DNA of 64,000 bases from Massospora cicadina (lineage: Eukaryota; Entomophthoromycota; Entomophthoromycetes; Entomophthorales; Entomophthoraceae): NCBI GenBank assembly GCA_022478985.1, contig JAKSZP010017457.1, forward strand, positions 1-64,000. Reading direction: 5' to 3'. A program made the translations under genes and the position numbers. The notes under the pieces were generated by a model, which was not told the DNA's origin, did no database searches, and worked only from the letters and a program-made list of their open reading frames with translations. Position 1 is the first letter of the stretch; each line of letters opens with the position of its first letter. This document shows, piece by piece, positions 4,105-62,980 of the stretch.

Positions 4105-4135
4105 GGAAGTGTCCGTCCCATGGTCAGCCTTCCCC
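4105..4135 (+). other. Conserved LINE 3' tail, LINE-A version
   Basis: Last conserved block before the A/T-rich tail of LINE-A. It matches 24 of 31 bases with the SINE tail at 51830-51860, and the core TCCCATGGTCAGC has a counterpart in LINE-B at 28507-28537. In LINEs with stringent tail recognition the RT binds such a 3' RNA structure; that role here is inferred. Confidence 0.65.
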
Positions 4136-4152
4136 GCAATAAATTTATAAAT

Positions 4153-7376: not shown

Positions 7377-7389
7377 ACTTTTCTTTCTC

Positions 7390-7409
7390 GTTGCAATCAC
7401 TTTTGCAAC
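7390..7409 (+). promoter_or_regulatory. LINE-A 5'-end hairpin (copy 2)
   Basis: GTTGCAA and TTGCAAC form a 7-bp stem around a six-base loop, 13 bases from the element start. Equivalent hairpins are at 35918-35937 (copy 3), 57722-57741 (copy 4) and 55910-55930 (LINE-A'), where the arm sequences differ but still pair. The ATCACTTT core is shared with LINE-B and LINE-C. A role as internal promoter or RNA signal is inferred. Confidence 0.5.
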
Positions 7410-7469
7410 CTATTCAATTAAAGACTAAATCTAGTTTGATAATCTCACAGAGGAGATTTGTCTGCGCCC

Positions 7470-8880: not shown

Positions 8881-8888
8881 AAGGTGCA

Positions 8889-12539: not shown

Positions 12540-12646
12540 CATCGCTTCTCTGGGGTGCCTCCCCTGGTACTAAGTTTATCTGTCCTGAGTCATATTTGGA
12601 AGTGTCCGTCCCATGGTCGGCCTTCCCCGCAATAAATTTAAATTTA

Positions 12647-12663
12647 AATTAATGAAAAATGAT
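12647..12663. repeat. Target-site duplication, right of LINE-A copy 2
   Basis: AATTAATGAAAAATGAT, 16/17 identical to 7360-7376. Joining the flanks restores a G5 RNase H-like frame around YLYG. Confidence 0.85.
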
Positions 12664-23231: not shown

Positions 23232-23911
23232 TTTGCCAGTTAGGTCAAAATCAAGGGTCCCAGTACCAGCTTGTCACTACCCCAATTGACCACTATTTAA
23301 TCAGTTGCATAGTGCTGAGAAATTTGTTGGTCAATTTTCTTACTTTTCCTTCAATAAAAATTTTGCCAAAAAACTAGTAATTTTTTCTATTGTATTACTC
23401 CTTCTGACCGCATCCCTGATGACGTTTTCCTGGTAGCCTGTCGGTCCATATACTAGATGGGCTCTACCAGTACTTATGGTTACTATGGCCCCCTCCATCG
23501 TCAATTGGATTTAGCGAGTCCAATATTTTTGGCTATTAAACCCCGTTATCATGAACTTCTGACAACAATAAATGGGAATCTTGTGGCCTTATGTCCATCA
23601 ATTGCAAGAGGGAATCTTCCTCCTTGCCTTTCCGGTTGAAATGACCCCATCTGTTGATAAACTTACTGAAACTATCTCTGTGGTCCCACCCCATGCAGCA
23701 AGGCCCCCTGGGTTGGGAGTGGGCTCATTGTGGTTTGTCGTCAGGATCATACTCACTTCTGTGTTACACCAACAATTCGTTGTTTCCCAATGCCCAGCTC
23801 CATATCAAGTCATTTGGTTGGCAATGCCTCTGGCATTCTGACTTGCTTTTTGAGTGCTTATGCATTCTGACTGGCAGGCCAGTCTAAACTTCTTCTGCCA
23901 TTTCCATGACA
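22481..23911 (+). repeat. G3 3' LTR (1431 bp)
   Basis: Partner of 16581-18007, TG...CA ends, followed by the CAGGG duplication. Its first 750 bp contain an extended reading frame, listed separately. Shares recognisable sequence with the minus-strand LTR at 53318-54472 and with 42508 onward, so these form one LTR family. Confidence 0.92.
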
Positions 23912-28506: not shown

Positions 28507-28537
28507 GAGGTAAGCTGACCAAGGGACAGACATTACC
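28507..28537 (-). other. Conserved LINE 3' tail, LINE-B version
   Basis: On the minus strand the core is GTCCCTTGG then TCAGCTT, just before the A-rich end. It matches the SINE tail at 51830-51860 in 27 of 31 bases, and the four differences are all transitions. Confidence 0.75.
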
Positions 28538-30674
28538 GATTATATGTAAAACTAAGAGAATAATTAAGAAATATAAAAATTGGGCACCCCAGGGTACTCA
28601 AGTTACCCCTGTTGCCAGCGGGACTGCCAGGTATGGGGGGTTGGTGCACTACTCCGAGGGGGTTTCCCCTGCTATGGAGCAGGTGTGAAGTAAAGGGTCT
28701 GTGTGGAGGAACCAGAGTGGGAACCATGATTCTATGAGCGCTTTTTGTTTTGTTCTCATATATCTATAGAGCCAGGCTTGGAAGTGCTCTAGTAAGTGGA
28801 CATGGAATCTGTTAATAACCCCACAAATGGTTGGGACCGTGCCCTTGAACGCATCTAATGCAATTGTGTGTATTGTCAACATTGCAATGGGTATTATTAG
28901 GGAGCGGAGTGTAGATGGGATTGGTGACTCGATCTGGAGCGCAAAGATACTCTTTGATATCGAGAATTCCTGTTCGTTTTAATCTTGAGCAGGCGTGCGA
29001 CTTCCTGCCATATAGCTTTGGTTGGGGGGCATGTTTCTAGGCGGTGATGTAGGGATCCCTCCCCTCCACATACTGCACATGTTTTGTGGAGGGAGTTATA
29101 GCGGTCCGCCATCTATAGGTCCTTCTCAAACAGCGCCAGGCGTTTGCTCTTATCCTTGGTTGTAGGAGTGGGTGGTGTGTCATTTTCCACATTGCTTTCT
29201 GTGTGGCTAAATCATGGGGAATGTCCAGCATATCTAGGTATTCTATTCTAGCTATTCTTGGGGTTGTTGCGAGCATATCCCTCTGGGGGTGGTTTTCTGG
29301 GTTTCTTAATTTGAATTGGGGGCTGGTTCGTCCCTTCCCTGTATAGTACCCATGTTCTCTATGGTCCATCCCATACAGCGGATAGTTCGGAGGATACGTT
29401 TGAAATGAGGGGAGATTCCATGTGAACCCGTTGCAATAGGGTGCTTGGCAAGGTATGAAAGTAGTCTGGGTGGACTATGTGGGTTGGTTTATTTGAGCGC
29501 CTGTGCAAAGTTAGTCCTTGCTGCTCTGGACCAATGTTGTTGCAGGAGGTCTGGAGCAAGGATTTCCTTTATCCAGGTCCTAGGATGTGATTGGCATAGC
29601 TCTCAAAATCTATTAGTCCCATGCCTCCGCTTGAGCGTGGGACAAATAGTGTTTCCATCCGTATAGGAGGGTGAGAGCCAGGCCACAGCCAGCCCTGGAT
29701 AAGCGCGCGAATTGAGGTTATAAAGGTAGGTGAGAAGGCTATCGCATGGGCCTGGTACCACAGTATTGGGAGAATGAGCGAGTTAGCAACTGTAACTCGT
29801 CCTGTTAATCCTGGGGTTCTTCCCTTGAGGGAGGCGACGCGTTTGAATACCCGTTGTAACAGGTTACTTTCCATTGTCTCATTAGCATATCCCCCTGATT
29901 CTAGCCAGATTCCAAGGTGTTGGACAGGAGTGGTGGTGGGAGGTGTTGCAGAGGGTAATATAATTGGGTTTTTTCTTCGAGTGTTGGTGTGAGATTCTGA
30001 TGTTGTGGCCCAATTGTTTGTGTATTTGCCTAAGAGGATGATTTCTGTCTTCCTTTTGTTGAGCGATTCATTGCTCATCTTGGAGTATTCCTCTAGAGTG
30101 TGTTTCAACTGTCGGGCATCTTCATTGTTTGCTATACCTGCTACGCAGTCATCTGCAAAGGCCAGTATCTTGACTGTTAGTTGTCCTTGTGCGGTTATCC
30201 CCATGAGACATGAGTCAGTTACTCGGAGGAGCGGGTCAAAGCTGAAATTGTATAGCAGTGGGCTGAGGGGATCCCCTTGTTTGAGCCCTCTGTGTGGTTT
30301 AATCTTGTTTGTTAGGAATCCAGGGTCGCATACAGCCATGGTTGCAGATTCAATTAGAAGCATCGCCCATTTTATATATCTTAATGGGAGTTTGAAGGCA
30401 TGTAGACATTCTTTTAGGTATGGCCAGCTAACACGGTCATACGCCTTTTCCTGATCCAAGAAGACCAGGGCACCAGTTGCTTTGGATTGGCAAATATATG
30501 CAACAGGGTGAATGTTGTTCCATATTGAATGCCCTGGTATAAACCCAAACTGGTTGAGTGATAGGACATCAGATGCAATTGCGCCTAATCTAGCTGCTAG
30601 AATTTTTTTTAAAATTTTTGTGTCAGTGTTGGAGAGTGCAATTGGGCGCCAGTTGGCCAGGTCCAACTTGTCAC
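28533..30674 (-). pseudogene. LINE-B ORF2, RT and C-terminal part
   Basis: The frame 30666-29569 is open for 365 codons: ANWRPIALSNTDTKIL, GFIPGHSIWNN, FLDQEKAYDRVSW, GLKQGDPLSPLLYNFSFDPLL, FADD (30148-30159, intact), HLGIWLESGGYANE, then GGMGLIDFESYANHILG. Later frames (29369-28649) hold CAVCGGEGSLHHRLETCP, the C-terminal CCHC. It is the longest uninterrupted RT stretch among the LINE-A/B copies here. The N-terminal RT block and endonuclease are on the far side of LINE-A copy 3. Confidence 0.92.
30665..30674. repeat. LINE-A copy 3 target-site duplication, left
   Basis: AACTTGTCAC, repeated at 35966-35975. It belongs to the LINE-B codons for GDKL. Confidence 0.75.
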
Positions 30675-30815
30675 CATTTTTAATTTTAATTTATTGTGGG
30701 GAAAGCCGACCATGGGATGGACACTTCTGAATATGACTCAGGAAAGATAAACTTAGTACCAGGGGAGGCACCCCAGAGAAGCGATGCTATCTCTTGTTGC
30801 CAGCGGGAACGCCAC

Positions 30816-33800
30816 TTATGGGGAGGGGGAGGGAATGTGTGAAGGGGCCGTAGCCACTATTGAGCACGTGTGGAGGAAGGGGTCTGCTTTGATGAACCAG
30901 ACTGGGAACCAGGAGGAGACCAGCTGTTGGCGATGCGGTGGGAGGTATCCAAACATCCACGCCTGAAAGTGGTCCACCAAATGAGACCAGAATCTGTGGA
31001 CAGCTTCTGGGAGGGTGGGAGTGGAGCCTACGATGGCATCCAAGACAATCGTGTGGATAGTCCACATGGCGATTGCAACCACCAGAGCACGGAGGGAATG
31101 TGGAAGGGAGGAGGCCATTGTTAGAGCAAACGTATCTCTTGACAGACTGAAGGAATGTGTTTGATCCTGGCCAAGCAGACGTTGAACTTCGCGCCATATC
31201 ACTTTAGAGGTGGGGCACTTCTCCAGGCGGTGGAACAGCGTTCCATACTGGCCACACATGACACAGGATGAGTGTAAAGCGTTAGAGCGCTCAGCTGTAT
31301 GATACACCCACCTCAGACAGCGCCACACATGGGAGCGGACTTAAGGCTGCAACAGAGGATGGTGTGCATATTTCCAGATAGTCTTTTGGGTCTCAGTGGA
31401 ATAAGGGATGTCCATCATGTCCAGGTAGTCCACCCTGGATAGGACTTGGGGTCGAATGGGGATCACGCCATCATGAATGGGTAGCCCCTGTACCTCTTGT
31501 GTGAACTGAGGAGAGGGGCGGCCTCTTCGGGTTGTATGTCCACTAATACGAATTCTCCACTCTGCGCTTCGCATGGAGAGTAGGATTCGTTTGTAGTGGG
31601 TTTTAGTCCCATGAGGACCTGTGGCTGATGTGTGTGATGCGAGGTATTTCATCAGGGAGTGGGGGTTTGATAGATTGTTGAGGCCCAAGGCTCAGGAGAA
31701 GTTGGAGCGGGCCGCATGGGACCAGTGTTGGTATGGGAGTGTAGGAGCGGTGATGGCCGCGATCCAGGTGCCCAGGATCTTGGCAGCATGGTCTTTGAAG
31801 TCAAGCAGGCCCATGCCACCTTGATGATGAGGGCCAAACATGACCTCTAGCCGTACTGGTGGAGGGCGACCTGACCAAGACCATCCTTGCTGCAAAGCAT
31901 ACAGGGATTTGAAGAAGCTTGAGGAGAAGGGGATGGCGTGGGCTCCAAACCAGACTTTGGATAGGAGCATAGAGTTGGCAAGAACAACCCTGCCAGTGAG
32001 GGTAGTAGGGTAGGCTCTGAGAGAGGCGATTCGCTTCGTCACGTTGTCCAGTATATGGCACTCCATTACTGCTGACGCAAATCCACCTGCCTCCATCCAC
32101 ACGCCCAGATGGCGCACCGGTCCTATGGTAGGACGTGGCATGAAGGGGAGCACCAGTGGAGCGGTGTGTGGTGAGTTAATTTGGCGTGGACGTGGGCGAG
32201 CAGATGGGCTGGGTTGGGAACTAATTGCTGGGGCCCAACAGTTCTGAAACCGACCAAGGAGGATGATTTCGGTTTTGGAGGTGTTCAGTGCCGCGTTGCT
32301 TACCCGGGAATATTCTTGGATGAGGGCTTCAAGCGCGCGTGCATCTTTGTTATTAGACACCCCCACCACGCAATCATCTGCAAATGCCATCATCTTGACT
32401 GGGGTTTGGCCTGGCACATGGACCCCAGTGAGTTGGGCATTCACATTTCGTAGTAGTGGGTCAAGGCTGAAGTTGTATAAGAGTGGGCTGAGGGGGTCCC
32501 CTTGTCGCAGGCCCCTTTGAGGGTGGACTACTTCCGTTAGGAAGCCAGGGCCACGCACTGCCATTGTCACAGATTCCGTGAGCAGCATCACCCAGTTTAT
32601 GAAGTGGGGGGTAGGCGGAATTGATGGAGGAAGGCTCTAAGGTATTCCCAATTTACTCTATCATAGGCCTTTTGTTGGTCCAATAATACAAGTGCCCCAG
32701 AGGCTGTGGACTGACATACATTAGCCACAGAGTGCACGCTATCCCAAATCGACCTTCTGGGGATGAAGCCAAATTGTTCTGGGGAGATGGTGGCAGATGC
32801 TACAGTCCTTAAACGGTTAGCCATGATTTTTGTTAAAATTTTGGTGTCTGTGTTTGTTAGAGAAATGGGGCGCCAGTTGGCTAAGTCAAGCTTATCCCCT
32901 TTCTTTGAGTGTGTCAGTAAAGGCCTCATGTCCTCCTGGTAGGAGGCGCATTTCCAACAGGCTTTGGTTAAGTGAGGCTAGCAGCAATGGGGATATATAT
33001 TTGAAATATTTTTTGTAGAACTCATATGGAATGCCATCTGGGCCTGGGCATTTTTGGTTTGGCGCACCATGAATGACTGTCCATAATTCGTTCAGAGTAA
33101 TTAAATTTATTATTTCTGGGTATTGGAAAATGGTGCAGATATGAGCTCGGTTGAGAAATTCCGCCATTTCAGCTGGCTGAATTGGTTCAGCTTGGTATAA
33201 CTTGGAGTAATATTTCTGCATTTTGATTGCCACTTCGGCCAGTGTGTCTGCAATGGAATTATCCGATCTTTGCACCTGTGTGCAGGCCACACTCTGGCAT
33301 GGTGCGAAATTTTTTTAAAGAAGTATGCAGTGCACTTGTCGCCTTTAGTGATGTGTGTGGCCCTGTATTGGACACAAACCTGATGTTTGTGTTGCCTTTC
33401 AAGTGCGTTGAGGTGGGCGGCTGCTCCGCCCACTTCCAGCCCCATGCAGGGCTGTATCCTGTGGCTGGAATGTTGGACTCCAAGTGGGCCAATTCCGCCA
33501 GAGTGCGCGAGATAACCGCCAATGTGGCTCGTGAGCGTCTGGAGGAGAGATGGCGATAGTGGCGGATGGTGTCCTCTTTGAAAGTTGCCCATGTGGAAAT
33601 GGGGTCCGCACAAAATGGTGCAACAAACAATTTTGCCAAAGTTGCCTCTTCCACCCACTTGGAAATCCTGGTGACGCGAGCTCGGGGGGGGCAGATTTTG
33701 TACCAATGTGGGGCCTTTGCAACTGTGACAGGTAAGTGGTAGGTTATTGAGACCAGTCGGTGGTTGGAGAATTCCATTTTTGTTTTTTTGAAGTGGAAGA

Positions 33801-34443
33801 TGTGGGGTTGGAATTTCACCGGCATTAGAATAAGGTCGATGTGGGTCATGGACCTTAATTGGCCATTGTGGATGTGGGGACGCATCATGTTTTTGAGCAG
33901 TGGGGCATGTTGTGGCAGCGCATCCATTAACCCAAGGGTGGCTTTTAGAACGTGTAGTTCTACATGACCCTGTGGGGCGTGGGGTGAGGGCGGCCACCAG
34001 TCCATCGGTGAGGTTAGCCAACAGTTCATGTCGCCAACTAGGAAAGAATCAGGGGGTAGCAGGAGGGATTTGACCGGCAAGAAAAATTCCTGACGCTCGT
34101 GTGCACCGTTTGGGGTGTAGATGCTGATGATTGCATGCACAACATCAGCCCACAAGAAGGTGATGACGAGCACTCTGCCATTTAGGAATGTTTCTGAGGA
34201 TGTGAATTTGAAAAAATTATTTTTCTGAATTAGCACCCCACAGTGCTTTGACCAAAAGGATAGGGATGAGAAGAGCATTGTTTTCCAAGCTTCCTCAGAA
34301 CTTCGTGGACGGTGGGACTCCTGGATGGCCAGGATATCCACGGGTAAATTGTGTTGTAAAAAACTCAGTTTCCTAGCCCAGGACAGGGAGGCCTTGAGTC
34401 TGGCGATATTCAGCATCCCTAGATTGAAGGTTTCCCCCATCAT
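30816..34443 (-). pseudogene. LINE-A copy 3 ORF2 (endonuclease-RT)
   Basis: ATG at 34443, three bases after the ORF1 TAA. The endonuclease is open for over 300 codons: DILAIQESHR (catalytic Glu), LVGDMNCWL, THIDLIL and FSNHRLVSITY, where family members have SDH. A lost G near 33428 breaks the frame. RT pieces 33290-32892, 32929-32597 and 32591-31692 carry PDGIPYEFYKKYF, GFIPRRSIWD, GLRQGDPLSP and FADD (32373-32384). TAA at 31341-31343 interrupts the end, as in copy 1. C-terminal CVMCGQYGTLFHRLEKC in 31328-30816. Confidence 0.92.
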
Positions 34444-34454
34444 ACCTTAGGTGC

Positions 34455-35857
34455 GAGGGGGTGGGCCCCTAGGCCCACCAGCCTCTTCAAGGTCCCCACA
34501 GGCTTTTACAGCAGCGTGGGTGTTAGCAGCAAAGCTATCGGGGTTTTTGTTAATTTTTGTGGAAAGAGTCACGTTGGCTTTGGCCTTTGCTTTTGTTTTC
34601 CTGACGTCAGACGAATTTTTTGCGGTGCAGATAAGTTTGGTGCACCGTCAAGTGGGTCAAAAAAAATTTTCAGTTGGTATAGGTCCTAAGTCAGTTTTGA
34701 CCGAAGCTTGGGTGCAGCAATTGGGTGAGATTGATTCTCCCATCGGATCCTCAGATTGAGTGGCCCGCTCGGCATGGGCCTCCCAATATGATTAGGCGAT
34801 GAATTCCCAAGTCACTTCAGCCATAAAGGTCTCCATGTCCTCCTGGCGTTGTGAGTGTGGGATGGTGGTAGTGGCCTTGGCCGCTTTCTTGGCCGCGGCC
34901 CTATGGGCCTGCTTGGCCTTCTTCCACTCCTGTGGGGAGATGGGCTTTACCATAGGTAGCAGCCTTGTGCTCCCCATGGGAAAGCCTCCTTGGTGCTTGC
35001 GGTTGGTTTGTAGTGCGCCTCTCCACTGGCCATGGCCACCAAGGGGTGCTCTTGGAATGTGACGCCCTCCTTGATGGGGCATGCGTGCGCCTTATGGCCA
35101 AACGCGTCACAGTGGGTGCAAATGGGGGGCGCGCTGTCCACGGTTACCTGGAATGGGTGGGTGGTATGCCCTGCGATGTCAATAAAGGTGGAGTGCGGGA
35201 TCTGGGTTAGGTCCTTCACGATCTCCTCAGTTGGGGTCAGAACTGTGATGGCTTTGCTGGTGCACAGGTGTGGCATCAGCGTGAAACGTTGCATTTCAAA
35301 AGATTGCATTTCGCCATATTTGGTGAGACCATCTTTCAGGTGTTGCTCCAAAATATCACATTTTACCATAGTAGGAAAAAAGTCAAATGTGAGGAAAATT
35401 TGGTTTGATTTTGTCCATCTGGTGCATTTGGTTTCGATGACCCATTGCCCTTTGGGGAGGTCAACCACTATGCGCACCGCTGCAGCCTCATCTGCTGTTA
35501 TTTTGCTTTCGAAACCTAGGTCCAGCCAACCACGTGACATGGAGTGAGGTGCAACATACACCATGGTCAGGAAAATTTTGTGTACATCTTCACAAATTTT
35601 TCCCATAAGGCCGTTTTTTGTATGTCTAGATACACATGGACTCCAAATTTTACCGATGAAAGTGGCTGGGAGTGTGGCGTGTTGATGTACTGGTTGCATC
35701 GTGCTTGCAACGCGAGTATCTCCAGGGAAATTGTGACCACCAGTTTTTTGAGATTTTTGTCTATTCCGCCAGATTCTCCAAGGCGTTTTTGAACGTTGGA
35801 GGCTGCGGGCCTTCCGCCTGCTCCTCTTGCCTTGCATGCCCAACTGCTCCCAGACAT
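34455..35857 (-). pseudogene. LINE-A copy 3 ORF1
   Basis: Starts MSGSSW at 35857. One T lost from a T run near 35600 shifts the frame (compare 7731 in copy 2); the new frame stays open to 34947 and contains the intact knuckle CTHCDAFGHKAHAC (CX2CX4HX4C) and flanking domain. A second lost T near 34945 ends it, and the basic tail continues in another frame to GPPPRT and TAA. Typical L1-type ORF1 architecture without an obvious coiled coil. Confidence 0.88.
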
Positions 35858-35950
35858 GGGCGCAGACTAATCTCCTCTGTGAGATTATCTAACTAGATTT
35901 AGTCTTGAATTGAATAGGTTGCAAAAGTGTTTGCAACTAGAAAGAAAAGT

Positions 35951-44508: not shown

Positions 44509-47273
44509 ATGGCGGGAAACCCCGCAAAAGAACCCGCAGGCTATGCCAAACGAGCCAGCACCACCCCCAAACGAAGCAACCCTCGGTTACCCACCTCAGG
44601 GTCAACCAGAATCACCCGCTCTCAAGCAGCAGCCATGAAAGCAGGCACCACCCCCCAACCTGGAGCTACTCCAACTAGCGCCAGTTCACCTGATCGCACT
44701 TCTGCAACCTGCACGCCTAACAGCTCTGTGTGTGCTGCCTCCCACCAACCCGCTGGGCCCCCTCCAACCAAGGAGGCCATCACCCACGCTGTTTTAATGG
44801 CGTCTGCTCAGTTGAATGCAACTCAGCCCATCCAGACATTCACCTCCCCCATTGTGTCAGCTAATTCAGCCCCATCTATTATTGCTGACGCCGTGTTTCT
44901 GGCTCCCTCCATGAGGGGCGATACCCAGCTACCTGGCCCCCAAATCCTCAGATGTAAGGTTGGATTAGCTGCACATTCTGGTTCACTAAGCACCAAATTG
45001 GGACAATCTACTCTTCCCAATGAGGATTCAAATGGTTCGGATTTTGGAACTTCACACCAGTTCCAATCTCACCCGTCCCATTTAAACCCCGTAATTGGCA
45101 CTTCTCAAGTTGGCACTTTATTGCAATATGCTGAAAACGACCAATTCACTAATCAGCCAATGAGTTTTGCCCACGAAATCACAGCAAACACTCGGGCTGA
45201 ATTTACCCAAATAGATTGGGATGGTGATGAAACATCTCCCTCCTCCCAATTGGCTGGAGTTAATTCCAATCTGGATGGGACTCCCCAATTTAGCGAGGCC
45301 CAACAATCACCTGACCCCAAACCCTCGGATGTAAGGTTGGATTAGCCGCACATTCTGGTTCACTAAGCACCAAATTGGGACAATCTACTCTTCCCAATGG
45401 GGATTTAAATGGTTCAGATTTTGGAACTTCACACCAGTCCCAATCTCACCCGTCCCATTTAAACCCCATAATCGGCACTTCTCAAGTCGGCACTTTATCT
45501 CAATATGCTGAAAATGACCAATTCACCAATCAGCCAGTGAGTTTTGCCCACGAAATTACAGCAAACACTCGGGCTGAATTTACCCAAATAGATTGGGATG
45601 GTGATGAAACATCTCCCTCCTCCCAACTGGCTGGAGTTAATTCCAATCTGGATGGGCCTCCCCAATTTAGCAAGGCCCAACAAACCGCCCCTCAATTTAA
45701 TATGACGCCAGCAACTGCTGTAACATTCCAGAAACAAGGGAACTCCACAAACTTGTCCAAACCACCAGCTCACACTCAACCTGCAATAGCAGCCCAAAGC
45801 AAACACAAACGTACCAAAGGAGCCACTGGGGCGTGGCAAAAACCTCTGGCACCAACGCTACCCAAATCTGATCCCCGTGAAGTGGCGTTTATTGCCGATG
45901 TTAAGAAGAAATGGGCCGAAACTAGAGCGCAAAAAGCTCTACCTCGCTCAACCTTCTCCCTCGCAATTCGCCTTTATTATGGGCATAACCCTGTTGAATT
46001 CTATACAGAGGATTACTTCTCATACTTTGCAGCGATTGCGGAGACATTCCCTATTAACACCACCATCCATGAATCAGTGGAGGGCCACTACATCGATGTG
46101 GGCTTCACTGAAGCTGCCCTTGCTGACCATGCTGCCACCCTCCAGGTCATTATTCCACGCGGATCTCTTCACATCTCCCGCACACGCTCTCACCTGGAGA
46201 AAATTTCATGGGTTACTTTTTCCAACCTACCAACGACTGTTGATCCTGAGTCTCTTAAACTGGCACTCCGTCGTGGTTTAATGGAGTTTGGGTCTGTTCT
46301 TTCAGTGGACTTTAGCGTCCCCTCTTACTATGCTCCCACTCAAAGAGCTCGCACTGCTAGGGCGTCATTCATCCCCTCCCCCACTGTATCCCGTAACATT
46401 GAGGTTATTCCTCGTGTGGCGGTAGTTGGGGCATGCCCTGAGATCTTTTTTGTCGACCCTGATCAGGCGCGCCCCCGGTGTTCATGGTGTAACGCCCTTG
46501 GACACTTGTATAGTGGCTGCACAGCTCGAAAACAAGCCCTCTTAGCCACCACCCAGGGGCCTAAACCAGGCCAAAAACGATCCCACGTGGCTGCAGCAGC
46601 AATTCCACAACCCACACAATGGGTTCCCATTCAAGACCTGTCCCCTGAGGCCTTATGCCTAGCAGTTGAAACAGCTAACCCCACTATTGGTGTGGGATAC
46701 CTTCGCGCTCATGCCCCCCTTCCAATGGGCACCCCCTCCAATCTCCCAGAGTCAACTCCCTCTCTCACCAAGCGCAAGGCATCTCCCACAGGGTGCCCCT
46801 CGTCAGCCACCCCCACTCAGGGCTCCGCGGCACCCCCACCAACCCCCACCAGCGATTTATCGCATCAGCCCTCAGCTCCCAATGGAGCTATGCCCACCAG
46901 CATGGACTGGCAACTCGCGGCCTGCAGTAGAAGTGCCACCTCAAAGAGTCTTACCCCAACCCCACAGTCCATTTCGCGCGGATCCTTTGCAGTGTTAGAG
47001 GAAGTGAATATGGACTCAGACTCATCAAATGGGGACACCGCGGAGGTCACCATTGAGCACCCTCAGGTCCTTCCCCTGCAACGGAGCGGGGGCAGCATCC
47101 TAGGCTGGCTTACTGGGTCCTCCGCCCCCCCACCCTCTCCTTCCCCTCAGAGCCCTCGACGCACCTCACGGATTGCAGCTAATAGTCAAGCTAAAGGACT
47201 CAAAACTAGCCGCCTCACAGCAGCAGGTTTAAGCGCTGGCAACCCCCCAGGACATGGAGGGGAACAGCTATGA
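44509..47273 (+). pseudogene. LINE-C ORF1 (CCHC protein), interrupted by a tandem duplication
   Basis: ATG at 44509, 87 bp from the element start. Order: Ser/Thr/Pro-rich basic N-terminus with ITRSQAAAMK, a Ser/Gln-rich region duplicated in tandem (44951-45327 and 45328-45704), a folded region (FSLAIRLYYGHNPVEFY, then an RRM-like stretch), the knuckle CSWCNALGHLYSGC (CX2CX4HX4C) near 46480-46520, and a long Pro/Ser-rich C-terminus. The 377-bp duplication shifts phase, so translation from the ATG ends at 45345; the downstream frame 45375-47273 is open for 632 codons. Without it ORF1 would be 795 codons plus stop. Confidence 0.88.
44951..45704 (+). repeat. 377-bp tandem duplication within LINE-C ORF1
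   Basis: GATGTAAGGTTGGATTAG starts at 44951 and 45328, and the two units run in parallel with roughly 5% mismatches. 377 is not a multiple of 3, so it breaks ORF1. Confidence 0.9.
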
Positions 47274-50200
47274 GTCCCCATGGCAGCACCCTGGCCCTGT
47301 AATCCATCAACGCAAATGGGTTGCGGGACTTTAAGCGGAGAGCCCGCCTCCTCCGAAACTTCAGGTCAGCACAAATTGACATCGCTGCTGTCCAGGAGCC
47401 CCATATCCTCCCCTCACGAACAATCTGCATGGAATGAACAGTTTGGAGGCAACTCCTTCTGGACAAACCATGCCGCCCTTATTGTTTTGAATCCCCGGGT
47501 TAAAACCCATTCTTTTTCACAATATCTAGGTGGCCGCCTCATACTGGCCAAGCTCACCACTCCTGACTTCTCCTTCTTCGCTGCAAGCATCTACCTGCCT
47601 AATGCAGGTCAGAAGCAAAATTGGCTCTTGGAAGAGCTCCTCCAACTCAATCTCCCACGGAATACAGTCCTCTTAGGAGATTTCAACACAACCATAAGTC
47701 GCGTCCGTGACTCTAACCCCCCTGCAGCAAAGGAACGCCCTGGATCAAGTCGCCTCCAGGATTTCCTTCGCCTGAGTGGCTTTATAGATGCGCTTCCACC
47801 CTCCGCGTCTGGCCTAGGTTGCATGACTAGGATCCAGTATGATGGAGGAGCTTTCCAGTCAGCGTCACGCATAGATATGGCACTGATTGGCCCCCTGCTA
47901 ATTGGCCGCGTCTCCTCTCCCATCTCTCGTGACAACCATCTGAGTGATCACAGGTCACTCACCGTTGTCCTCACCACCACACTTAGACCGTCGCGTAGGT
48001 TCTGGCCTAGGGTTGCCCCAGCTCTTCTCAACAACCCCTTCATTAAGGAGAAGCTGTCTATGACCATCCGGGAGACTCTCACCTCCCCCCACCCCACCTG
48101 CTTGACCACAAGGCTAGATGGGCGGTGACCAAGGAGGGCATCACCCGCGTTGCTTACAACTGTGCCAAAGCCCAGATGACTGCAGCTCGCGCCAGAGTCA
48201 AAAGGGCGGAAGCTAGAATCAGACATCTAGAGCGAAACTGCCAGCCTTCGCCCTCTCCCAGATGGTTGGAAGACTGGGAAGCGGCGCAGGAAGCACTCCG
48301 CTTGGAGCTCACACTGCAGGAAGAACGGGCAGCAAACTTTACAACATCTCGTTACTATGCTCAATGGGAACGCCCCACCCGCTTCTTCTTTCAGAAACAG
48401 AAAGCCCGGTCAAAAGCGCAGGATATTACTGCACTGAAGATTGGCACTACAACCACTCCAGATAAGGAGGAATTCACGCAGGAACTACACCGCTTCTACT
48501 CCAGCCTCTTCCATGCCACCCAGGTGGACCCATCGGACATCCAAGACTTCCTGTGGCGGGCTCCAGAGCCGCCCATTGACCCACGGGCTGATGAGGCTCT
48601 ACTGGCGCCTATTTCCATCCAGGAGGTGATGGAAACCCTTCTGAAATCCCCACGGCTTTTAGCCCCAGGCCCAGACGGAATACCCTTTGAAGTGTACCTT
48701 CTGGAACCTGCAGTGATAGCCAGAACCCTCCGCGACCTCTTCGCTGCACTCTTGGTGAATGGCGAGGTCCTCCCCGACTCCAGAGGCTCAATCACGACCC
48801 TCATTCACAAGAAGTCAGACCGTGAGAACCTGGCGAACTGGCGCCCCATAGCGTTGATCAACACAGACCACAAGCTCTTCACGAAGCTTCTGGCCAACCG
48901 CATCACCAAATGGGTGTCACCTCGCCTCTCCCCATCCCAGTACGGTTTTATTCCGGGGAGGTCGTTATGGGACAACTATAATGACCTTCACGTGACTTTG
49001 ACTGCTAACTCTCGTAAGGTGAATGGCTTTGTGGCTCTTCTGGATATGGAGAAAGCATATGATCGGGTAGCCTGGAAGTATATTGATGCTTCCCTGGCCC
49101 GCTTCCATCTCCCACCCGCAGCTAGGCGCTGGATATCATCGCTCTATGACCAGCTCCACACCAGAGTCCTGGCGCCAATGGGTTTTACAGTGGCAGTACC
49201 AGTTGGACAAGGTCTCCGGCAAGGGGACCCCCTGAGCCCTATCCTTTTTAACATCACCCTTGACCCCCTCTTGGCCTCCTTACAGGACAAGCTAACAGGG
49301 ATTCTGGTCCCAGGTAAAGCCCCCACACGCACCATGGCATTTGCAGATGACACTGCCATTGCATTTGGCTGCCCTGGGGATGTTGCCCTCGCTGCTGTGA
49401 CCATTGAGAGGTACACCAAGGCGTCCAACGCCATGGTCAACACCTCCAAGACAACAGTTGTACAGGTCAGCTCCCCCACCTTCCCCCCACCATTTGGTAT
49501 AGAACCTGTGCGCGGTAACTTCCGTCACCTGGGCGTTCTCACCAACCAACAAGGAGTTGCGCTAAAAGACAATAAGGACTTGCTCCTTGCAGCAGTTAAC
49601 TCCAGGATTGCCAGCTGGAACCGGTGGCACATCACCCCCCAGGGTCGAGCTCTGATGGCCAATGTGTTCCTCCTCTCCAAAGTCTGGTTCCTAGCGCACG
49701 TCTGCCCATTCACAGATGCCTTTTATACGCGGCTCAATGTACTCCTCCGCTGTTGGATCTGGGGCTCAAACCATCCATCAATAGCCCTCTCAACCATTGC
49801 CCGACCCTGCAATGAAGGGGGCCTAGGGCTTCTGGACACGCGATCCCACGCCACCACAATCTTCCTGAAGTTCCTATGGCCGATTGTCTGCTGGGACGCG
49901 ACCCCCATGCCCCAATGGGCGCCCGCCCTCCGCCAGTCAGTGTCAGCAGCTCTGGGTCTTCCTAGAGCATCTCTGACCTCATTAGGGGAGTGGCTCACAA
50001 ACCACCCAGGCCATCGCCTAAAACCATCCTCATCCCCCTACTGGAACCAGGCTCTCCTTGCCCTGAAACGAGTAGGCGCGCGGATCCATCATGCCTTCCC
50101 ATACAGAAGGGAAGGCCCTGGCCTCAGCCCACGTCGCCATGCAATTGTGCACAATGGACAAGTTGTCACAACTCGCCTCAACCCCCAAGATCGTCCTCCC

Positions 50201-50803
50201 ATCCGCCCAAGACTCCTTGAGCTCCTCCCTCCCTCCGTGAGATTTGACCTTAAGGAATTGTGGAAGGACGTCTATCACCCCATCCTGTCAGCAAAGGTGT
50301 CCAACACCTTATGGAGAGTGCTCCACTGTTCATACAGGACAGAGGACCGGACTGGCCCTACCTTCCAGCACCGAAGCTGCCCCCGCTGTGTGGAGCCTAT
50401 TGACTCCCACCTCCATCGTTTTTTCACCTGTCCAGGTGTCGCCGCATTTTGGCCAAAGGCCCGCGCGCTCCTCCATGCTCAGCCCTGGTCTGGACACCCT
50501 GTGCAAGACCTCATGTTTGAGCAGACATTACCTGGTTGCCAATGACCCCTCCGTGTCCTCGCCTATGCCACAGCCATCTGGACCATCCATAACTCCTTCC
50601 TTCGTGCTGCCTTTGACCAGCAGGTGTGGACCCTTCCACACATGATCACCCACTTTCAGGTACACTTTGAGATGGCCCTGAAGGTCTGCACTATGTCGCC
50701 AACCCTCCCCGCTCAGTTGTCACTGCAGCACGGCTCTGGCGCGCAAACCCCCCTCCCTTTCTCGATGCCTCCTCCCTCCCCTTCCCTCGCCTCAGGCTCT
50801 TAG
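47270..50803 (+). pseudogene. LINE-C ORF2 (endonuclease, RT, CCHC), four lesions
   Basis: The ATG at 47270 overlaps the ORF1 TGA as ATGA. Codon 11 is TAA (47300-47302). SINANGLRDFKRRARLL and AAVQEPH (Glu) follow, then a +1 shift near 47430 into the frame carrying LLGDFN, SRIDMALI and SDHRSL; a -1 shift in a C run near 48085 restores the first frame. 48125-50545 is open: PDGIPFEVYL, ANWRPIAL, GFIPGRSLWDN, LLDMEKAYDRVAW, GLRQGDPLSPILFN, FADD (49340-49351) and CPRCVEPIDSHLHRFFTC. TGA at 50543-50545 precedes a homologous C-terminus (AIWTIHNSF) to TAG at 50801. Confidence 0.92.
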
Positions 50804-50873
50804 GAGCCCAGGCGTAATTCAATAAACATCAATGAATCCCCCCCTTGGGTTGGGACCATCTAGTACTAAAAAA

Positions 50874-51436: not shown

Positions 51437-51577
51437 TAGGGAGTGGAAGGCGAGTCATCAGGGTGTACAGCTGCCAATATGAAAGTTGCAGGTTTGACTG
51501 ACACCCTCATCACATTTTTTGAGGTACATTCCAAAGGATGCTAATGGCAGTTAATAGATCTAAAAACATGAAAACCT

Positions 51578-51877
51578 AGGGGGTGGAAGGCGAGTCAATA
51601 GGGCATATGGCTACCAATCAGAAGGTTGCAGGTTTGATTCCCGCCCTTCACACATTAATTGGGGTGCCAGCTGAAGGAAGCTATTGGCGGTTAGTAGGTA
51701 TAATAACACAAAAACCTTACCCATGACATAACCAGAAAAATCTGAGTCCCAATCCGGAGGTGAAAAAAAACTTCTATGACAGAGTTGACCCTGCTCAGGT
51801 TACATGTTGATACTTTCTTTCTCTATTTTGGTAATGTCCATCCCCTGGTCAGCTTGCCTCAAATAAATAAAAAAAAT
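51578..51877 (+). mobile_element. SINE copy 2, full length (300 bp), tRNA-derived
   Basis: 5' tRNA-like head (51582-51655): GTGGAAGG and CCCTTCAC can pair as an acceptor stem, B box GGTTTGATTCC at 51631, and CTACCAATCAGAAGG resembles an anticodon arm with CCA in the loop (Trp-like, tentative). Unrelated body, then a 31-base LINE-type tail (51830-51860) and AAATAAATAAAAAAAATAAA. Flanked by AAAAACATGAAAACCT (51562-51577) and AAAAACACGAAAACCT (51878-51893). Transcription by RNA polymerase III is expected from the boxes. Confidence 0.85.
51830..51860 (+). other. SINE 3' tail shared with LINE-B and LINE-A
   Basis: 27/31 identical to LINE-B 28507-28537 (minus) and 24/31 to LINE-A 4105-4135. Core TCCCCTGGTCAGCTT. 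Confidence 0.78.
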
Positions 51878-52639
51878 AAAAACACGAAAACCTTACAATG
51901 ATGTAACCATAAAATTCAAGTTTTAATCCAGATGTGGAAATCTTTCTTCAACGGAGATGACCCTGCACAAGTTTCATGTCTATGCTTTCTTTCTTTCTCT
52001 ATTTCAGTAATTTCCATCCCCTGTTGGCTTGCATCAAATAAATATATAATTTGTTTCTTTTATTGTTGGGGAAGAAACTAAATGTTAATGCTTATTAACT
52101 CTTAATCAAGCACAATTGATGATAATGGTTGTATGTGGAATCTGTTGTTGGCTTCTTTTGTCAATAATTAAGTTCCATGTGTGGATCAAACGAGATGAGC
52201 TGCCAATTATTTGTTTATTTGGTGTAAGCCATCCATAGGATGGACATTAGTAAAGCTCAGTGGAGCAAATTAAGCTAAAGAAAAATAAAAAATGAGCAGA
52301 ACAAGACAAATGGATCACTCAAACTGACATAAAATTCCAAAATTAAAAAAAACAAGTTCAGAAGCGTTAAACCACTAGCCATCTATAGCGGAGGGTGAAG
52401 GGGGATTATGAGGCTCATTATCCTCATATGGAGTATAAAGGGTATGGCATAAATACAAGAGTATGGGTATGGGTAAACCCTTAAGGTATGGGTCAAGGTA
52501 GCAAAGTGGGGCTTGTAACTTGATCTTTCCTATGAGAAGAGTGGTGACATATTCAGAGTGGGTTTTCTCAGCCTCAAGGCGCTCTTTGGGGATGGTAGTG
52601 AAGGTGGAAATATTATTGTTGGTGATGAAGGGTTTAAGG

Positions 52640-53317: not shown

Positions 53318-54472
53318 TGTCAGGCAAACAGCAAGTTAGAATTAGACCTGCCTGCCAGCCCAGGTGCTGGAGCACCCAAATGGCAAATCAGAATGCCAAA
53401 GGTACTACTGCTGGTATGACGGATATGAAACTGGATAGGATGTTTGCTAATAACTACCAATGAGCCAAAATCTCATTTAGGTACATAATGAAATACCAGA
53501 CGAGTATGGCCATTAACCCCGAGGGGTGTGTGAGTGCTGGATGAAAGGGTGGTTTAATTTTTCAACATAAATAACTAAAGTTGGGAAAGGATATATTCAA
53601 TAAGAAATAAAGAAAAAAATTGACCAACAATTTTCTCAGTGCAATGCAACTGATTTAATAGTGGTCAATTGATGTGGGGACAAACAGGGATCAGGTCCCT
53701 CAAGTTTCACCTAACTGGAAAATTATTCAGGGATGGGGGCAGATAAGATCAATAGGAACTGACATCAAAGGATTTGTCAGCAGGCTGAGTCACTGTCAGT
53801 TTGACCTCAAACGCGCAAAATGAGGCTTAAATGCATTTCCAACAGCTAGCGTGATGGTGTCTGGCCAATGAGCAGCGGGGATTCCTCAAGGCCACCCCAC
53901 ATAGGGGTGGTCCCAATTGGTTGGTAATGGGTTCAGGATGCCCAACCCACCCATGCCCAGTTGCTGGGCTGTTCATTTGGTCAAAAGCATTGCATCAGCC
54001 GCAACTCCTGATTTGCCAGAAGGGAGCTAGAGACATCATTGATGGTGTCCAATGCTACTACCTGCATGTCAGGAATGATCCCCGATGATTTTAAGAGGGG
54101 TTAATTTTGATGATTGCACTGCTGGGCAAATTGAAACTGTCAGCGATTCTGGCCAATAACTCAATCTTCATCCTTCTTTGGCTATGCAGAATCTGATTGT
54201 TGGGCTTAATTTCTATCAGTTTCAGAGTGATCGACTTTGATTTGGCGTTCTCAGCACAGATTTCCTTAATCTCTCTAATGATTTTGGCTGAGGTGAACAA
54301 AGGTACCGCGGGAGGGGTCCAGAGAGGGAAGGCCATTACCCAACGCTCATCTACCATATGGGCAAGATCGCCCTGGGTGATGAGGGGCATGGCCACCCTC
54401 TTTGGCCCCTTTTTTCTCAGAAACAGGAAGAGTGACCAATCTACGCACAGGGGAAGTTCCCCTGGACTTACA
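53318..54472 (-). repeat. G7: G3-family LTR (about 1155 bp), probably a 3' LTR
   Basis: Plus strand starts TGTCAGGCAAACAGC and ends GGGGAAGTTCCCCTGGACTTACA, aligning with inverted G3 LTR (including CACCCCACATAGGGGTGG, GACCAACAATTTTCTCAG). A purine-rich GATGGAGAGAGCAACAT lies just outside its right end (minus strand), placing a pol end to the right, hence a 3' LTR. No G3-like primer site at the left edge. Confidence 0.8.
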
Positions 54473-57707: not shown

Positions 57708-57802
57708 AACTTTTCTCTCTCATTGCAATCACTTTTGCAACCCATTCAATTCAAGTCTGAATCTTTTTTGATAAATCTCATAGAGGAGATTAGTCTGCGC
57801 CC

Positions 57803-59210
57803 ATGTCAGGGAGCAGCTGGGCAAGTAAGGTAAAAGGAGCATGTGGGAGGCCTGCGGCCTCAAACGTTCAAAAACGCCCCAGAGAAACTGGCAGAGTAGA
57901 AAAAATTTCAAAAACTGGTGGTCACTATTTCCCCAGAAACCTCACTTGGCAAGCATGATGCAACCAGTACATCAATATACCGCACTCCCAGCCACTTTTG
58001 TCAGTGGAATATGGAGTCCGCATGTTTCTGGACATCTTATAAACGGCTTTATGAGAAAAAATTTGTGGAGATGTGCACACTTTTTCCAGACTGTGGTGTA
58101 TGTTGCACCTCGTTCCATGTCACGCAGTTGGCTGGACCTAGGTTTTGAAAACAAGGAGGCAGCATATGAAGCTGCTGCGGTGTGAATAGTGATTGACCTC
58201 CCTGAAGGGCAATTGGTCGTCAAAACAAAACGCACTAGATGGACAAAATCCAACCAAATTTTCCTCACGTTCAACTTCTTGCCTACTACAGAAAATGTGA
58301 CATTTTGGAGCAACACCTGAAAGATGGTCTCGCCATCTATGGAGAAATACAATCTTTCGAAATGCAACGCTTTATGTTGATGCCACACCTGTGCACCAGC
58401 AAAGCCATCGCAGTTCTGACCCTAACTGATGAGATCATGAAGGACCTAACCCAGATCCCGCACTCCACTTTTATTAATATTAAAGGGCATACCACCCACC
58501 CTTTCCAGGTAACCGTGGACAGAGCGCCCCCCATCTGCACCCACTGTGACGCATTTAGCCATAAGGCACATGCATGCCCCGCCAAGGAGGGCGTCACATT
58601 CCAAGAGCACCCCTCAGCGGCCATGGCCAGCAGAGAGGCGCACTATGAACCAACCGTAAGAACCAAAGAGGCCTTCCCATGGGAAGCACAAGGCTGCTAC
58701 CTATTGGTAAAGCCTATCTCCCCACAAGAATTGAAGAAGGCCAAGCAGGCCTGCAGAGCTGTGGCCAAGGGAGCAGCCAAAGTCACCACCACTAACCCAC
58801 ACTACCAACGCCAGGAGGACATCAAAACCTTTGCAGCAGAAGCAATTGGGAATCCATTAACCAATCAAATTGGGAATCCCATACTAATTGGGCCACCCAA
58901 TCTGAGGATCCGATGGGTGACTCAAATTCTCCTGATCTTTGCAACCAAGCTCCAGTTGAAACTGACTTGTCCTTCAACCTACCTGAAAATTTTTTTTCGC
59001 CCCACTTGATGGTGCACCAAACTCATCCGCACCACAAAAAATTCGTCCAATGTCAGGGAAACAAAAATTGAAGGCAAAAGAAACGCGAATCTTTCTGCTA
59101 AAATTAACAAAACTACTGATAGCATTGCTACAAACACCCACGCTGCTGTGAAGGCCCATGGGGATCTAGAGGAGGCTAGTGGGCCTGGGTGCCCACCCCC
59201 TCGCACCTAA
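57803..59210 (+). pseudogene. LINE-A copy 4 ORF1
   Basis: ATG at 57803 (MSGSSWASKVKG). Frame breaks before 57960 and near 58190. The longest piece (58239-59009) has CDILEQHLKDGLAIYGEIQSF, the knuckle CTHCDAFSHKAHAC (Gly before His replaced by Ser) and the basic tail. It ends before the TAA of the GCACCTAAGGTG junction at about 59200-59212. Confidence 0.86.
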
Positions 59211-59215
59211 GGTGT

Positions 59216-62200
59216 GATGAGGGAACCTTCACTTTAGGGACATTGAATATCGCCAGACTCAAGGCCTCGCCGTCCCAGGCTAGGAAACTGAGTTTTTTAT
59301 AAAAAAATTTACCCATGGATATCCTGGCCATCCAGGAGTCACACTGTCTATGAGGTTCCGAGGAGGCTTGGAAAACAATGCTCCTCCCATCCCTATCCTT
59401 TTGGTCAAAGCACAGTGGGGTGCTAATTCAGACAAATAATTTTTTTTTAAATTTTTATCATCGGAAAACTTCCTCAATGGCTGAGTCCTCGTTGTCACTT
59501 TTTTGTGGGCTGACGTGTAACATGCTATTATCAACATCTATGCCCCAAATGGTGCACAAGAGCGTTGTGATTTTTCTCATCAGTCAAATCCCTCCTGTTA
59601 CCCCAGACCCTTTTGTAGTTGAAGACATGAACTGTTGGCTAAACACTCCAATGTACCGGTGGCCTTCCTCCTCACACACCCCCAGGGCCACGTTGAACTT
59701 CGCGTTCTAAAGGCCACCCTTGGGTTAATGGATATGCTGCCGCGGCAAGCCCCACTGCTTGAGAACATGATGTACCCCCACATCCACAATGGTTAATTAA
59801 GGTCCATGTCCTGCATCGACCTTATCCTTATGCTGGCAAATTCCAACCCCACATATCCCACTTTAAAAAAACAAAAATGGAATTCTCCAACCATCGACTG
59901 GTCTTGATAACCTACCACCTACCTGTCACAGCTGCTAAGGCCCCACATTGGTGCAAACTCCGCCCTCCTAAACTTGTATCGCTAGGATTTTCCACGTGGG
60001 TGGAGTCAGCAACTTTGGCATTAGAGTTTGTTGCACCATTTTGTGCAGACCCCATTTCCACATGGACAACTTTCAAAGAAGATACCATCTGCCAATCTCG
60101 CCACCTATCCTCCAGACGCTCACGAGCCACATTGGCTGTCATTTCGCGCACTTTGGAAGAGTTGGCACACCTGGAGTCCAACATCCCAGCTACAGGATAC
60201 ATCTCTGCATGGGGCCAGAAGTGGGCGGAGGCAGCTGCCCACCTCAACGCGCTCAAAAGGCAACACAAACATAAGGTTTGTGTTCAGTACAGGGCCAAAT
60301 GCATCACAAAAGGTGACAAGTGCACCGCATATTTTTTAAAAAAATTTGCACCATGCCAGAGTGTGGCCTGCACACAGGTGCAAAGACCGGATGATTCCAT
60401 TGCAGACACACTGGCCGAAGTGGCAATCAAAACACAAAAGTATTACTCTGAGTTGTACTAATCTGATCCAATTTCAGCCGGCTGAAGTGTCAGAATTTCT
60501 CAACTGAGCCCACATCGACACTATTTCCTGATATCCGAAAATAATGAATTTGATTACTCCAATCGAATTATGGACAGCCATCCGTGGTCACCAAACTGAA
60601 AATGCCAGGCCTGGATGGCATTCCATATGAATTCTACAAAAAGTACTTCAAATATATATCCCCACTACTGTTGGCCTCACTTAACCAGAGCCTTTTGCAA
60701 ACGCGCCTCCTACCAGGAGGACAAGAGGCCTTCACCATCACACTATTCAAGAAAGGGGACAAGCTAGACTCAGCCAACTGGCGCCCCATTTCTTTAACTA
60801 ACACGGATACAAAAATTTTAAAAAAATCATGGCTAACCATTTAGGGATTGTAGCATCTGCCACCATCTCCCCAGAACAATTTGGTTTTATACCCAGAAGG
60901 TCGATTTGAGACAACGTGCACTCTGTGGCCAACGCGTGCCAGTCCACAGCCTCTGGGGCACTTGCATTCTTGGACCATCAGAAGGCCTATGATAGAGTAA
61001 ACTGGGAATACCTCAGGGCCTGCTTTCATCAATTCCGCTTACCCCCACGCTTCATCAACTGGGTGATGCTGCTCACGGAATCTGCAACAATGGCAGTACG
61101 TGGCCCTGGCTTCCTAACAGAAGTAGTCCGCCCTCAAAGGGGCTTACGACAAGGGGACCCCCTTAGACCAATCTTATACAACTTCAGCCTTGACCCACTA
61201 AAACAAAATGCGAATGCCAAACTCACTGGGGTCCATGTGCCAGCCCAAGCCCCAGTCAAGATAATGGCGTTCGCAGACAACTGTGTGGTGGGGGTGTCTA
61301 ATAATAAAGATTCATGCGCACTAGAAGCTCTCATCCGGGAGTATTCCTGGGTAAGTAATGCTGCACTGAACGCCTCCAAAACTGAAATCATCCTCCTTGG
61401 TCAGTATCAAAACTGCTGGGCCCCTGCAACCAGTGCCCAGCCTGGACCATCTGCTCACAAACGCGCTCACCCTCCCAGCTCAACCCACACCGCCCCACTG
61501 GTGCTCCCCTTTGTGCCACGCCCTACCATAGGGCCAGTCCACCATCTGGGCGTGTGGGTGGAGGCAGGCGGATATGCATCAGCAGTAATAAAGAGTCATA
61601 TTCTAGACAATGTGATGAAGCGCATCGCCTCCCTCAGAGCCCACCCTACTTCCCTTACTGGAAGGGTCGTTTTGGCCAACTCTATGCTCATCTCCAAAGT
61701 CTGGTTTGGAGCCCACGAATCCCCTTCTCCCCAAGCTTCTTCAAATCCTTGCATTCCCTGCTGCAAGGATGGCTATGCTCAGGCTGCCCTCCACCAGTAT
61801 GGTTAGAAGTCATGTTTGGTCCTCATCAGCATGGTGGCATGGGCCTGCTTGACTTCAGAGCCCATACAGCCAAGATCTTGGCTACTTGGATTGTGGCCAT
61901 CACTGCATCTACACTCCCCCTCCCAACACTGGTCCCGCGCGGCCCGCTCCAACTTCTCCCACGCCTTGGGCCTCAAAAATCTACGAACCCCACTCCCTGA
62001 TGAAATACCTGGCTTCACATCCATCGGCCACAGGTCCTCACGGTACTAAAACCCACTACAAACGAATCCTAATCTTCATGCGGAGCGCTGAGTGGAGAAT
62101 TTGTATTAGAGGACATACAATCTGAAGAGGCCGCCCCTCTCCTCAGTTCACACAAGAGGTACAGGGGTTACCTATCCATGATGGCGTGATCCCCATACAG

Positions 62201-62835
62201 CCCCATGTCCTATCCAGGGTGGACTACCTGGACATGATGGACATCCCTTACTCCATTGAGACCCTAAAAACCATCTGGAAATACGCTCACCATCCTCTGT
62301 TGCAGCCTCAAATCCGCTCCCATGTGTGGCGCTGCCTGAGACGGGTGTATCGTACAGCTGAGCGCTCTAACGCTTTACACTCATCCTGCGTCGTGTGTGG
62401 CCAGTATGGAACGCTGTTCCAACGCCTGGAGAAGTGTCCTAACTCTAAAGTGATATGGCGCGAAGTTCAACGTTTACTGGGCCAGAATCAAACACATCCC
62501 TTCAGTCTGTCAAGAGATATGTTTGCTTTATTAATGGCCTCCCCCTTCCACCCTCCCTCCGTGCTCTGGTGGTTGCAATCGCCAGGTGGACCATCCACAC
62601 GATTGTCTTGGATGCCATCGCAGGCTCCACCCCCACCCTCCCAGAAGTTGTCCACAGATTCTGGTCTCATTTGGTGGACCACTTTCAGGCGTGGATGTTT
62701 GGATACCTCCCACCGCATCGCCAACAGCTGGTCTCCTCCTGGTTCCCAGTTTGGTTCATCAAATCAGACCCTTTCCTCCACACTTGTTCAAATGTGGTTA
62801 TGGCCCCTTTACACGTTCCCTCCCCCTCCCCATAG
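59216..62835 (+). pseudogene. LINE-A copy 4 ORF2 with FADN in the RT active site
   Basis: Endonuclease fragments to 59900 (FSNHRLVLITYHLP near 59885) then the linker 59877-60461. RT starts PGLDGIPYEFYKKYF (60600), with SIW changed to SI* by a TGG-to-TGA change near 60908; 60916-61806 has FLDHQKAYDRVNW, GLRQGDPLRPILYN and FADN at 61270-61281, where the second catalytic Asp (GAT) is AAC. C-terminal CVVCGQYGTLFQRLEKC in 62186-62540. The Gln codon that is a stop in copies 1 and 3 is CAA here. Confidence 0.9.
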
Positions 62836-62964
62836 TGGCGTTCCCGCTGGCAACAAGAGATAGATTCGCTTCTATGGGGTGCCTTCCCTGTTCTAAGTTT
62901 TGTCTCGTCAAGTCAATTTTGGAAGTGTCCGTCCTATGGTCGGCCTTCCCCGCAATAAATAAAA

Positions 62965-62980
62965 AATATTTATGCCCTGA
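62965..62980. repeat. LINE-A copy 4 target-site duplication, right
   Basis: AATATTTATGCCCTGA, same as 57692-57707. Confidence 0.95.

Follow-up and report, generated by a model that had tools for sequence, protein, structure and literature searches.

A candidate SINE-LINE partnership through a shared 3' hairpin tail in the fungus Massospora cicadina

Does a SINE of Massospora cicadina move by means of a LINE whose 3' tail it shares? The question was raised by a preliminary description of one stretch of DNA, 64 kb long and here called the window, in which the 31 nt before the A-rich end of a SINE resemble the ends of two LINEs, LINE-A and LINE-B. The window covers the first 64 of the 88.7 kb of its contig (assembly of 1.47 Gb in 16,968 contigs), and non-LTR retrotransposons make up much of the window. 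Among them are LINE-A in four copies, LINE-B and LINE-C in one copy each, the SINE, which sits inside an older SINE, and an old member of another family, E (Table 1). A further repeat of about 1.4 kb is also present (16581-18007, 22481-23911 and 53609-54472; copies 90% and 69-71% identical).

DNA searches of the assembly gave 4152 candidates for the SINE, 2734 for LINE-B and 433 for LINE-A, and 40 places of each, the limit of the search, were scored, from which 28, 30 and 30 copies respectively were used. Tails were located by script in 28 SINE, 29 LINE-B and 30 LINE-A copies, and 86 tails were aligned (alignment A1; it leaves out L051, with a tail of 30 nt, and L018, whose tail was detected by the model described next and not by the script). 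Because the aligned copies are among the best-scoring, old and divergent members are under-represented. A model of the tail, R1, was built from the SINE, LINE-A and LINE-B families.

Table 1. Coordinates of the SINE, the LINEs and further carriers of the tail. Positions are those of the window, except in the rows whose feature name holds a locus (L076, L089, L092), which refer to that locus.
Feature	Position	Strand	Remarks
SINE	51579..51875	+	tRNA-like head, own body, 31-nt tail, AAATAAATAAAA end; 28 genome copies aligned
SINE hairpin tail, 31 nt	51830..51860	+	54.8 bits, E 6.9e-18, model R1
SINE 5' target-site duplication	51561..51577	+	17-nt match, 1 mismatch, to 51877-51893
SINE 3' target-site duplication	51877..51893	+	
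Older same-family SINE hosting the young SINE	51439..52045	+	halves 51439-51577 and 51876-52045 aligned apart
Decayed tail of older SINE	52006-52035	+	12.0 bits, model R1
LINE-A copy 1 tail	4105..4135	+	53.5 bits (R1); element cut by window start
LINE-A copy 2 tail	12598..12628	+	52.0 bits (R1); element ~7376-12650
LINE-A copy 3 tail	30698..30728	-	40.6 bits (R1); element ~30678-35950
LINE-A copy 4 tail	62921..62951	+	46.8 bits (R1); element ~57708-62968
LINE-B tail	28507..28537	-	50.1 bits, model R1
LINE-B RT ORF piece	29569..30666	-	RVT_1 E 1.8e-32; best solved relatives LINE-1 ORF2 proteins
LINE-C, L1-like	44509..50840 (approximate)	+	RVT_1 E 1.5e-33
Old family-E copy	52209..52336	-	eroded tail 52225-52249, 12.4 bits; 70% to L076 over 131 nt
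Family E, L076	835-865	-	
Family E, L089	about 2629-4307	-	
Family F, L092	about 3659-5386	+	

The SINE and the LINEs of the window

The SINE is approximately 282 nt long and measured 280-284 nt up to the end of the tail in the 27 copies with a recognised head. A B-box-like motif, GGTTTGATTCC, was found by eye in the consensus of the head, and the element is probably tRNA-derived; ARAGORN called no tRNA anywhere in the window, no Rfam match was obtained at gathering thresholds and the head matched no LINE in the window. The SINE is a short, dispersed element flanked by target-site duplications (TSDs). Allowing one mismatch and requiring 8 nt or more, TSDs were present in 24 of the 27 copies with a recognised head; when a core of 8 or more exactly matching nt was required, they were found in 21 of 28 copies (mean 14.5 nt). 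Insertion sites lean to TT|AAAA, the A side being blurred by the A-rich tail. The 3' end reads ...CTC-AAATAAATAAA, followed by flank which varies between copies. The older SINE into which the young one was inserted is about 75% identical to it.

The LINEs had been described as L1-like, and the RT of LINE-B is indeed nearest to LINE-1 ORF2p among solved proteins, scoring 101.6 bits to LINE-1 ORF2 proteins, 102.8 bits to 8c8j (named RNA-directed DNA polymerase), which we take to be the same protein as the LINE-1 ORF2 entries, and 59.6 bits to R2. Its protein sequence is 52% identical to the RT of LINE-A over 273 aa and 35% identical to that of LINE-C over 364 aa. Few entries among the best 120 relatives listed for the LINE-B RT were named by organism, and those are fungi (Rhizopus, Zancudomyces, Calcarisporiella and basidiomycetes). 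As to a possible APE-type endonuclease, an Exo_endo_phos match in a LINE-A ORF (E 0.0062, 16.8 bits) was below the cut-off of 24.5, and the SINE insertion sites lean to TT|AAAA.

LINE-B ends in ...CTC-GGTTAAATAAAA and LINE-A in ...CCC-GCAATAAATTTA(AATTTA)n, in both cases followed by copy-specific flank. LINE-A copy 4 has a 16-nt TSD, AATATTTATGCCCTGA (flanks read by eye), and TSD candidates were obtained for 6 of 29 LINE-B and 4 of 30 LINE-A loci, some of them clearly inside the element. The LINE-A copy at 30678-35950 (-) interrupts ORF2 of LINE-B, and the flank beyond it reads into the start of the LINE-B RT (DLANWRPIAL).

LINE-C was without the shared tail when the window was scanned with R1. 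Shortly before its 3' end it contains a hairpin at 50788-50814 (+), CGCCT CA GGCTC TTAG GAGCC C AGGCG (-15.5 kcal/mol), which is possibly a second, separate recognition tail. These data are consistent with tail and RT lineage travelling together, LINE-C being one comparison only. Where the ORF1 region of LINE-C begins there is a 369-bp tandem duplication (95%; window 44938-45683).

A common 31-nt block and its folding

Re-reading of the letters placed the tails of the SINE, LINE-B and LINE-A copy 1 where the preliminary description had put them, with the same agreement on direct reading: 27/31 between SINE and LINE-B, all four differences being transitions, and 24/31 between SINE and LINE-A. 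A conserved 3' block was present throughout the genomic copies of all three families, and the consensus tails agreed at 28/31 (SINE/LINE-B), 23/31 (SINE/LINE-A) and 23/31 (LINE-A/LINE-B). When the last 373 nt of the partner were shuffled with dinucleotides preserved and searched for the best ungapped 31-mer, these values were reached by 0/2000 shuffles in each comparison (mean about 16; maxima 21, 22 and 22 respectively), the 23/31 of SINE/LINE-A being one base above its maximum. With a local score of +2/-3 the SINE scored 47 against LINE-B (shuffle maximum 24), while tail matches to LINE-A were within the range of shuffles (SINE vs LINE-A 23, maximum 28).

The body and head of the SINE had been called unrelated to the LINEs, and the 150 nt upstream of the tail matched at shuffle level only, with a score of 15 against LINE-B (253/500 shuffles as high) and 16 against LINE-A (164/500). 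Identity between SINE and LINE-B stops at the first base of the block. The corresponding 150 nt of LINE-A and LINE-B do match each other (0/500 shuffles as good), this longer match stopping about 40-46 nt before the tail. There is no sharp edge to the block between these two LINEs because 10/15 nt directly before it also agree, compared with 3/15 and 2/15 at 15-45 nt before. Their tails are 23/31 identical although their RT pieces are 52% identical and the preceding 15-45 nt unlike.

A scan of the whole window with R1 (filters off) returned six strong matches of 40-55 bits, which were exactly the 3' ends of the one SINE, the four LINE-A copies and the one LINE-B, the element ends falling directly after the tail. 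The next two matches (12 bits) were the older SINE and the older family-E element, and the remainder, from 10.3 bits down, look like noise. An origin of the shared tail as a chimera of one locus was rejected, given the many genome copies and the TSDs of the SINE copies.

On folding, the block forms a bulged hairpin with stem 1-5/25-29, bulge 23-24, pairs 6-7/21-22, a U-U mismatch at 8/20, pairs 9-11/17-19 and loop 12-16. Unguided RNAalifold recovered 9/10 of its pairs. As a named structure it paired 96.1% of 310 cells, compared with at most 53.2% for slid partners, and its pairing or covariation score was reached by 0/500 shuffles; the two-sided pair count was reached by 499/500 shuffles and the number of further pair types by 495/500. 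Pairs 3-27 (UA/UG/AU) and 5-25 (AU/GC) are compensatory between LINE-A and LINE-B; the compensatory evidence consists of about two changes between these LINEs. All three consensus differences between SINE and LINE-B (10, 11 and 27) are at paired positions and keep the pairing in the named structure, two of the three falling in a contested inner part. There RNAfold prefers another inner helix (LINE-A -12.8 vs -7.3, LINE-B -9.5 vs -4.2 kcal/mol), which pairs fewer cells (88.3%) and is broken in most SINE copies. Support is thus good for the outer stem and weaker for the inner part, where the competing helix is the more stable one in the LINEs. Fold energy alone was weak evidence, 65 (SINE), 11 (LINE-B) and 20 (LINE-A) of 1000 shuffles being as low. 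In the 86 aligned tails the loop positions U12 and C13, together with G18-G19-U20 and G23-C24, are invariant, with stem pairs exchanged.

Further carriers of the tail

A search with R1 of 88 loci (234,930 b) gave 101 matches at E <=1, of which 4 were weak and 97 strong. Apart from the 88 tails already known, the strong matches added nine: two from LINE-A, one from the SINE, one that is LINE-B-like, two from relatives of LINE-A which differ from it in the sequence before the tail, one from family E and two from a family F. Families E and F carry the tail at their 3' ends behind unrelated bodies. Single copies have broken pairs (5-25 in E L076; 5-25 and 1-29 in F L078; 1-29 in L015; 7-21 in L044), and F copy L073 keeps all pairs of the hairpin.

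The proteins of E and F are 36-38% identical to each other over 75 and 103 aa. Pfam gave nothing significant for four E/F protein pieces, and the likeness to LINE ORF1 was marginal (E 0.016, eight-protein comparison). A family-F protein piece had one homologue in the protein collection, L0F63_002612 of Massospora cicadina itself (82% over 46% of the query). This speaks against a plant host, as does, weakly because plastid contigs may have been omitted, the lack of any RuBisCO large-subunit match in the assembly. The 2.4-2.6 kb preceding the tail in E and F showed no RT. Directly beyond the E tail of L089 there is a LINE fragment with an RT, and we read this as the element in which E landed and not as part of E. 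Families E and F are perhaps half-LINE-like passengers.

Six 10-kb stretches away from the original matches contained three tails at E <1e-4 in 60 kb, two of them from LINE-B copies, of which one is older, and the third from an older SINE. As a rough guess, from sampled contigs which were chosen for holding a SINE, the genome may hold tens of thousands of tails.

Proposed partnership, alternatives and meaning

As in stringent SINE/LINE pairs, the elements share a 3' end below unrelated upstream sequence and the shared part is a conserved stem-loop with pairing-preserving changes in the outer stem. With conserved 3' blocks in three families, an edge at the block and no single-locus chimera, the partnership proposed in the preliminary description is supported. 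We consider it likely, at roughly 85%, that one lineage of L1-clade LINEs has in this block its 3' recognition hairpin, which the SINE acquired and by which its RNA is accepted in trans. An ORF2 protein of the LINE-A/LINE-B lineage would most likely bind the hairpin in the element RNA, and target-primed reverse transcription would begin in the A-rich run directly behind it. A tRNA-derived SINE would have gained this LINE tail, its RNA would therefore have been accepted in trans, and the SINE would then have spread genome-wide; E and F may borrow the same ORF2 through their tails. From the sequences we infer protein binding, trans-mobilisation and the identity of the LINE which supplies the enzyme, as well as the RT requirement for the hairpin.

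LINE-B shares the tail at 28/31, but it is not the sole candidate because E and F carry the tail too, and as sole partner it was dropped. E L076 ties with LINE-B in the block, each matching the SINE consensus at 28/31, and is nearer to the SINE after it: over the last 44 nt E L076 is 91% identical to the window SINE (listed SINE copies 86-93%) and the window LINE-B 84%, and the run behind the stem is CTC-AAATAAA or near in the SINE, in E copies and in 1/3 F copies, and CTC-GGTTAAATAAA in LINE-B. The donor and helper of the SINE might accordingly be a LINE not seen here whose 3' end is like that of E, with LINE-B as its cousin. We give this reading less weight because of the tie within the block, the difference being confined to the run after it; moreover, the end of F copy L092 resembles that of LINE-B, neither E nor F yielded an RT, and stringent enzymes may accept several close tails. 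It is unlikely on balance, while far from negligible.

A further possibility is that the LINEs are of the relaxed type and read the A-rich end only, as mammalian L1 does (excerpts of PMC4176376), so that the block would reflect LINE descent and a chance carry-over into the nascent SINE. A-rich runs end the SINE, LINE-A and LINE-B alike, as poly(A)-like recognition would allow. However, the block has outlasted the preceding 15-45 nt between LINE-A and LINE-B, its pairing is maintained by compensatory change, and E and F, whose bodies differ, have it at their 3' ends as well, which makes this explanation improbable. Chance or convergence of a short motif can be practically dismissed: the block is short and the match of SINE to LINE-A is not significant under the strict local score, but no shuffle reached 28/31 or 23/31 and every strong match in the window is the 3' end of an element.

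UnaL2, the partner of UnaSINE1, and ZfL2 belong to the L2 clade and not to L1, and MgL is a Tad-type LINE, also not L1. The recognition hairpin proposed here resembles the short 3' hairpin which eel UnaL2 and zebrafish ZfL2-1/ZfL2-2 need for mobility. In ZfL2 the binding of this hairpin by the ORF2 protein depends more on the loop than on the stem, with which the conserved loop and exchangeable stem pairs found here agree (excerpts of PMC4176376). UnaL2 ends in TGTAA repeats, unlike the A-rich ends of the present elements, and fungal tRNA SINEs with a LINE-derived tail are described in Mg-SINE/MgL and SINE2-1_BG/Tad1-24_BG, the partner in the latter being Tad-type by name and not L1 (both from parts of PMC3747384).

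A shared structured tail on L1-like LINEs had been considered unusual. It is uncommon, but L1-clade SINE/LINE pairs with a conserved hairpin have been published for maize and sorghum (PMC3747384 and PMC2774510, in excerpt) and a shared 3' end for Chlamydomonas. Maize ZmSINE2/ZmSINE3 and LINE1-1_ZM (L1 clade, monocot lineage in ME1) likewise combine a tRNA-related SINE with a shared L1-clade 3' end, and have a putative hairpin with compensatory stem changes and a conserved loop (same excerpts). They differ in a UCU loop and CGAG 3' flank, compared by eye as a quoted motif with the loop UCCCC/UCCCA and flank CUC/CCC here, in their plant host and in the poly(T) end of ZmSINE2. Chlamydomonas SINEX-3_CR and L1-1_CR are a SINE and an L1-clade LINE with a common 3' end and poly(A) terminus (excerpt of PMC3747384); this pair, from a green alga and with about 80 nt shared, is likened by description and not by sequence. 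The L1-clade pairs named in the consulted part of that review are from green plants and algae. In the literature searched, which mostly excludes subscription journals, we found no fungal L1-clade SINE/LINE pair, and what is added here would be such a pair in a fungus, as far as its sequences indicate. Any claim of priority must also take into account the proposal of a conserved 3' UTR stem-loop in the human elements L1 and Alu (PMC5135761, in excerpt).

Genomes of more than 500 Mb are described for several members of the Entomophthorales, and L1 LINEs were substantial (6.3%) in M. cicadina alone among the genomes compared (PMC10515909, a preprint, in excerpt). We tentatively entertain, at less than even odds, that the hairpin is a general retrotransposition tag in this entomophthoralean fungus, carried by a tRNA SINE and by protein-coding elements without RT (E and F) as well as by two or more L1-clade LINEs. 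The hairpin is small enough for direct tests with purified ORF2, and the SINE would also serve as a marker in a fungal genome that is very large and rich in repeats. If the reading as a general tag holds, the L1 clade would have a stringent system beyond the green plants, and a fungal L1 lineage with hairpin, SINE and passenger families would provide an opisthokont case. It bears on the question, raised by the consulted parts of PMC3747384 and PMC4176376, of whether L1 elements were hairpin readers first and poly(A) readers later: on the general-tag reading, stringent recognition of the tail would be favoured as ancestral for L1, with mammals and flowering plants each having lost it on their own.
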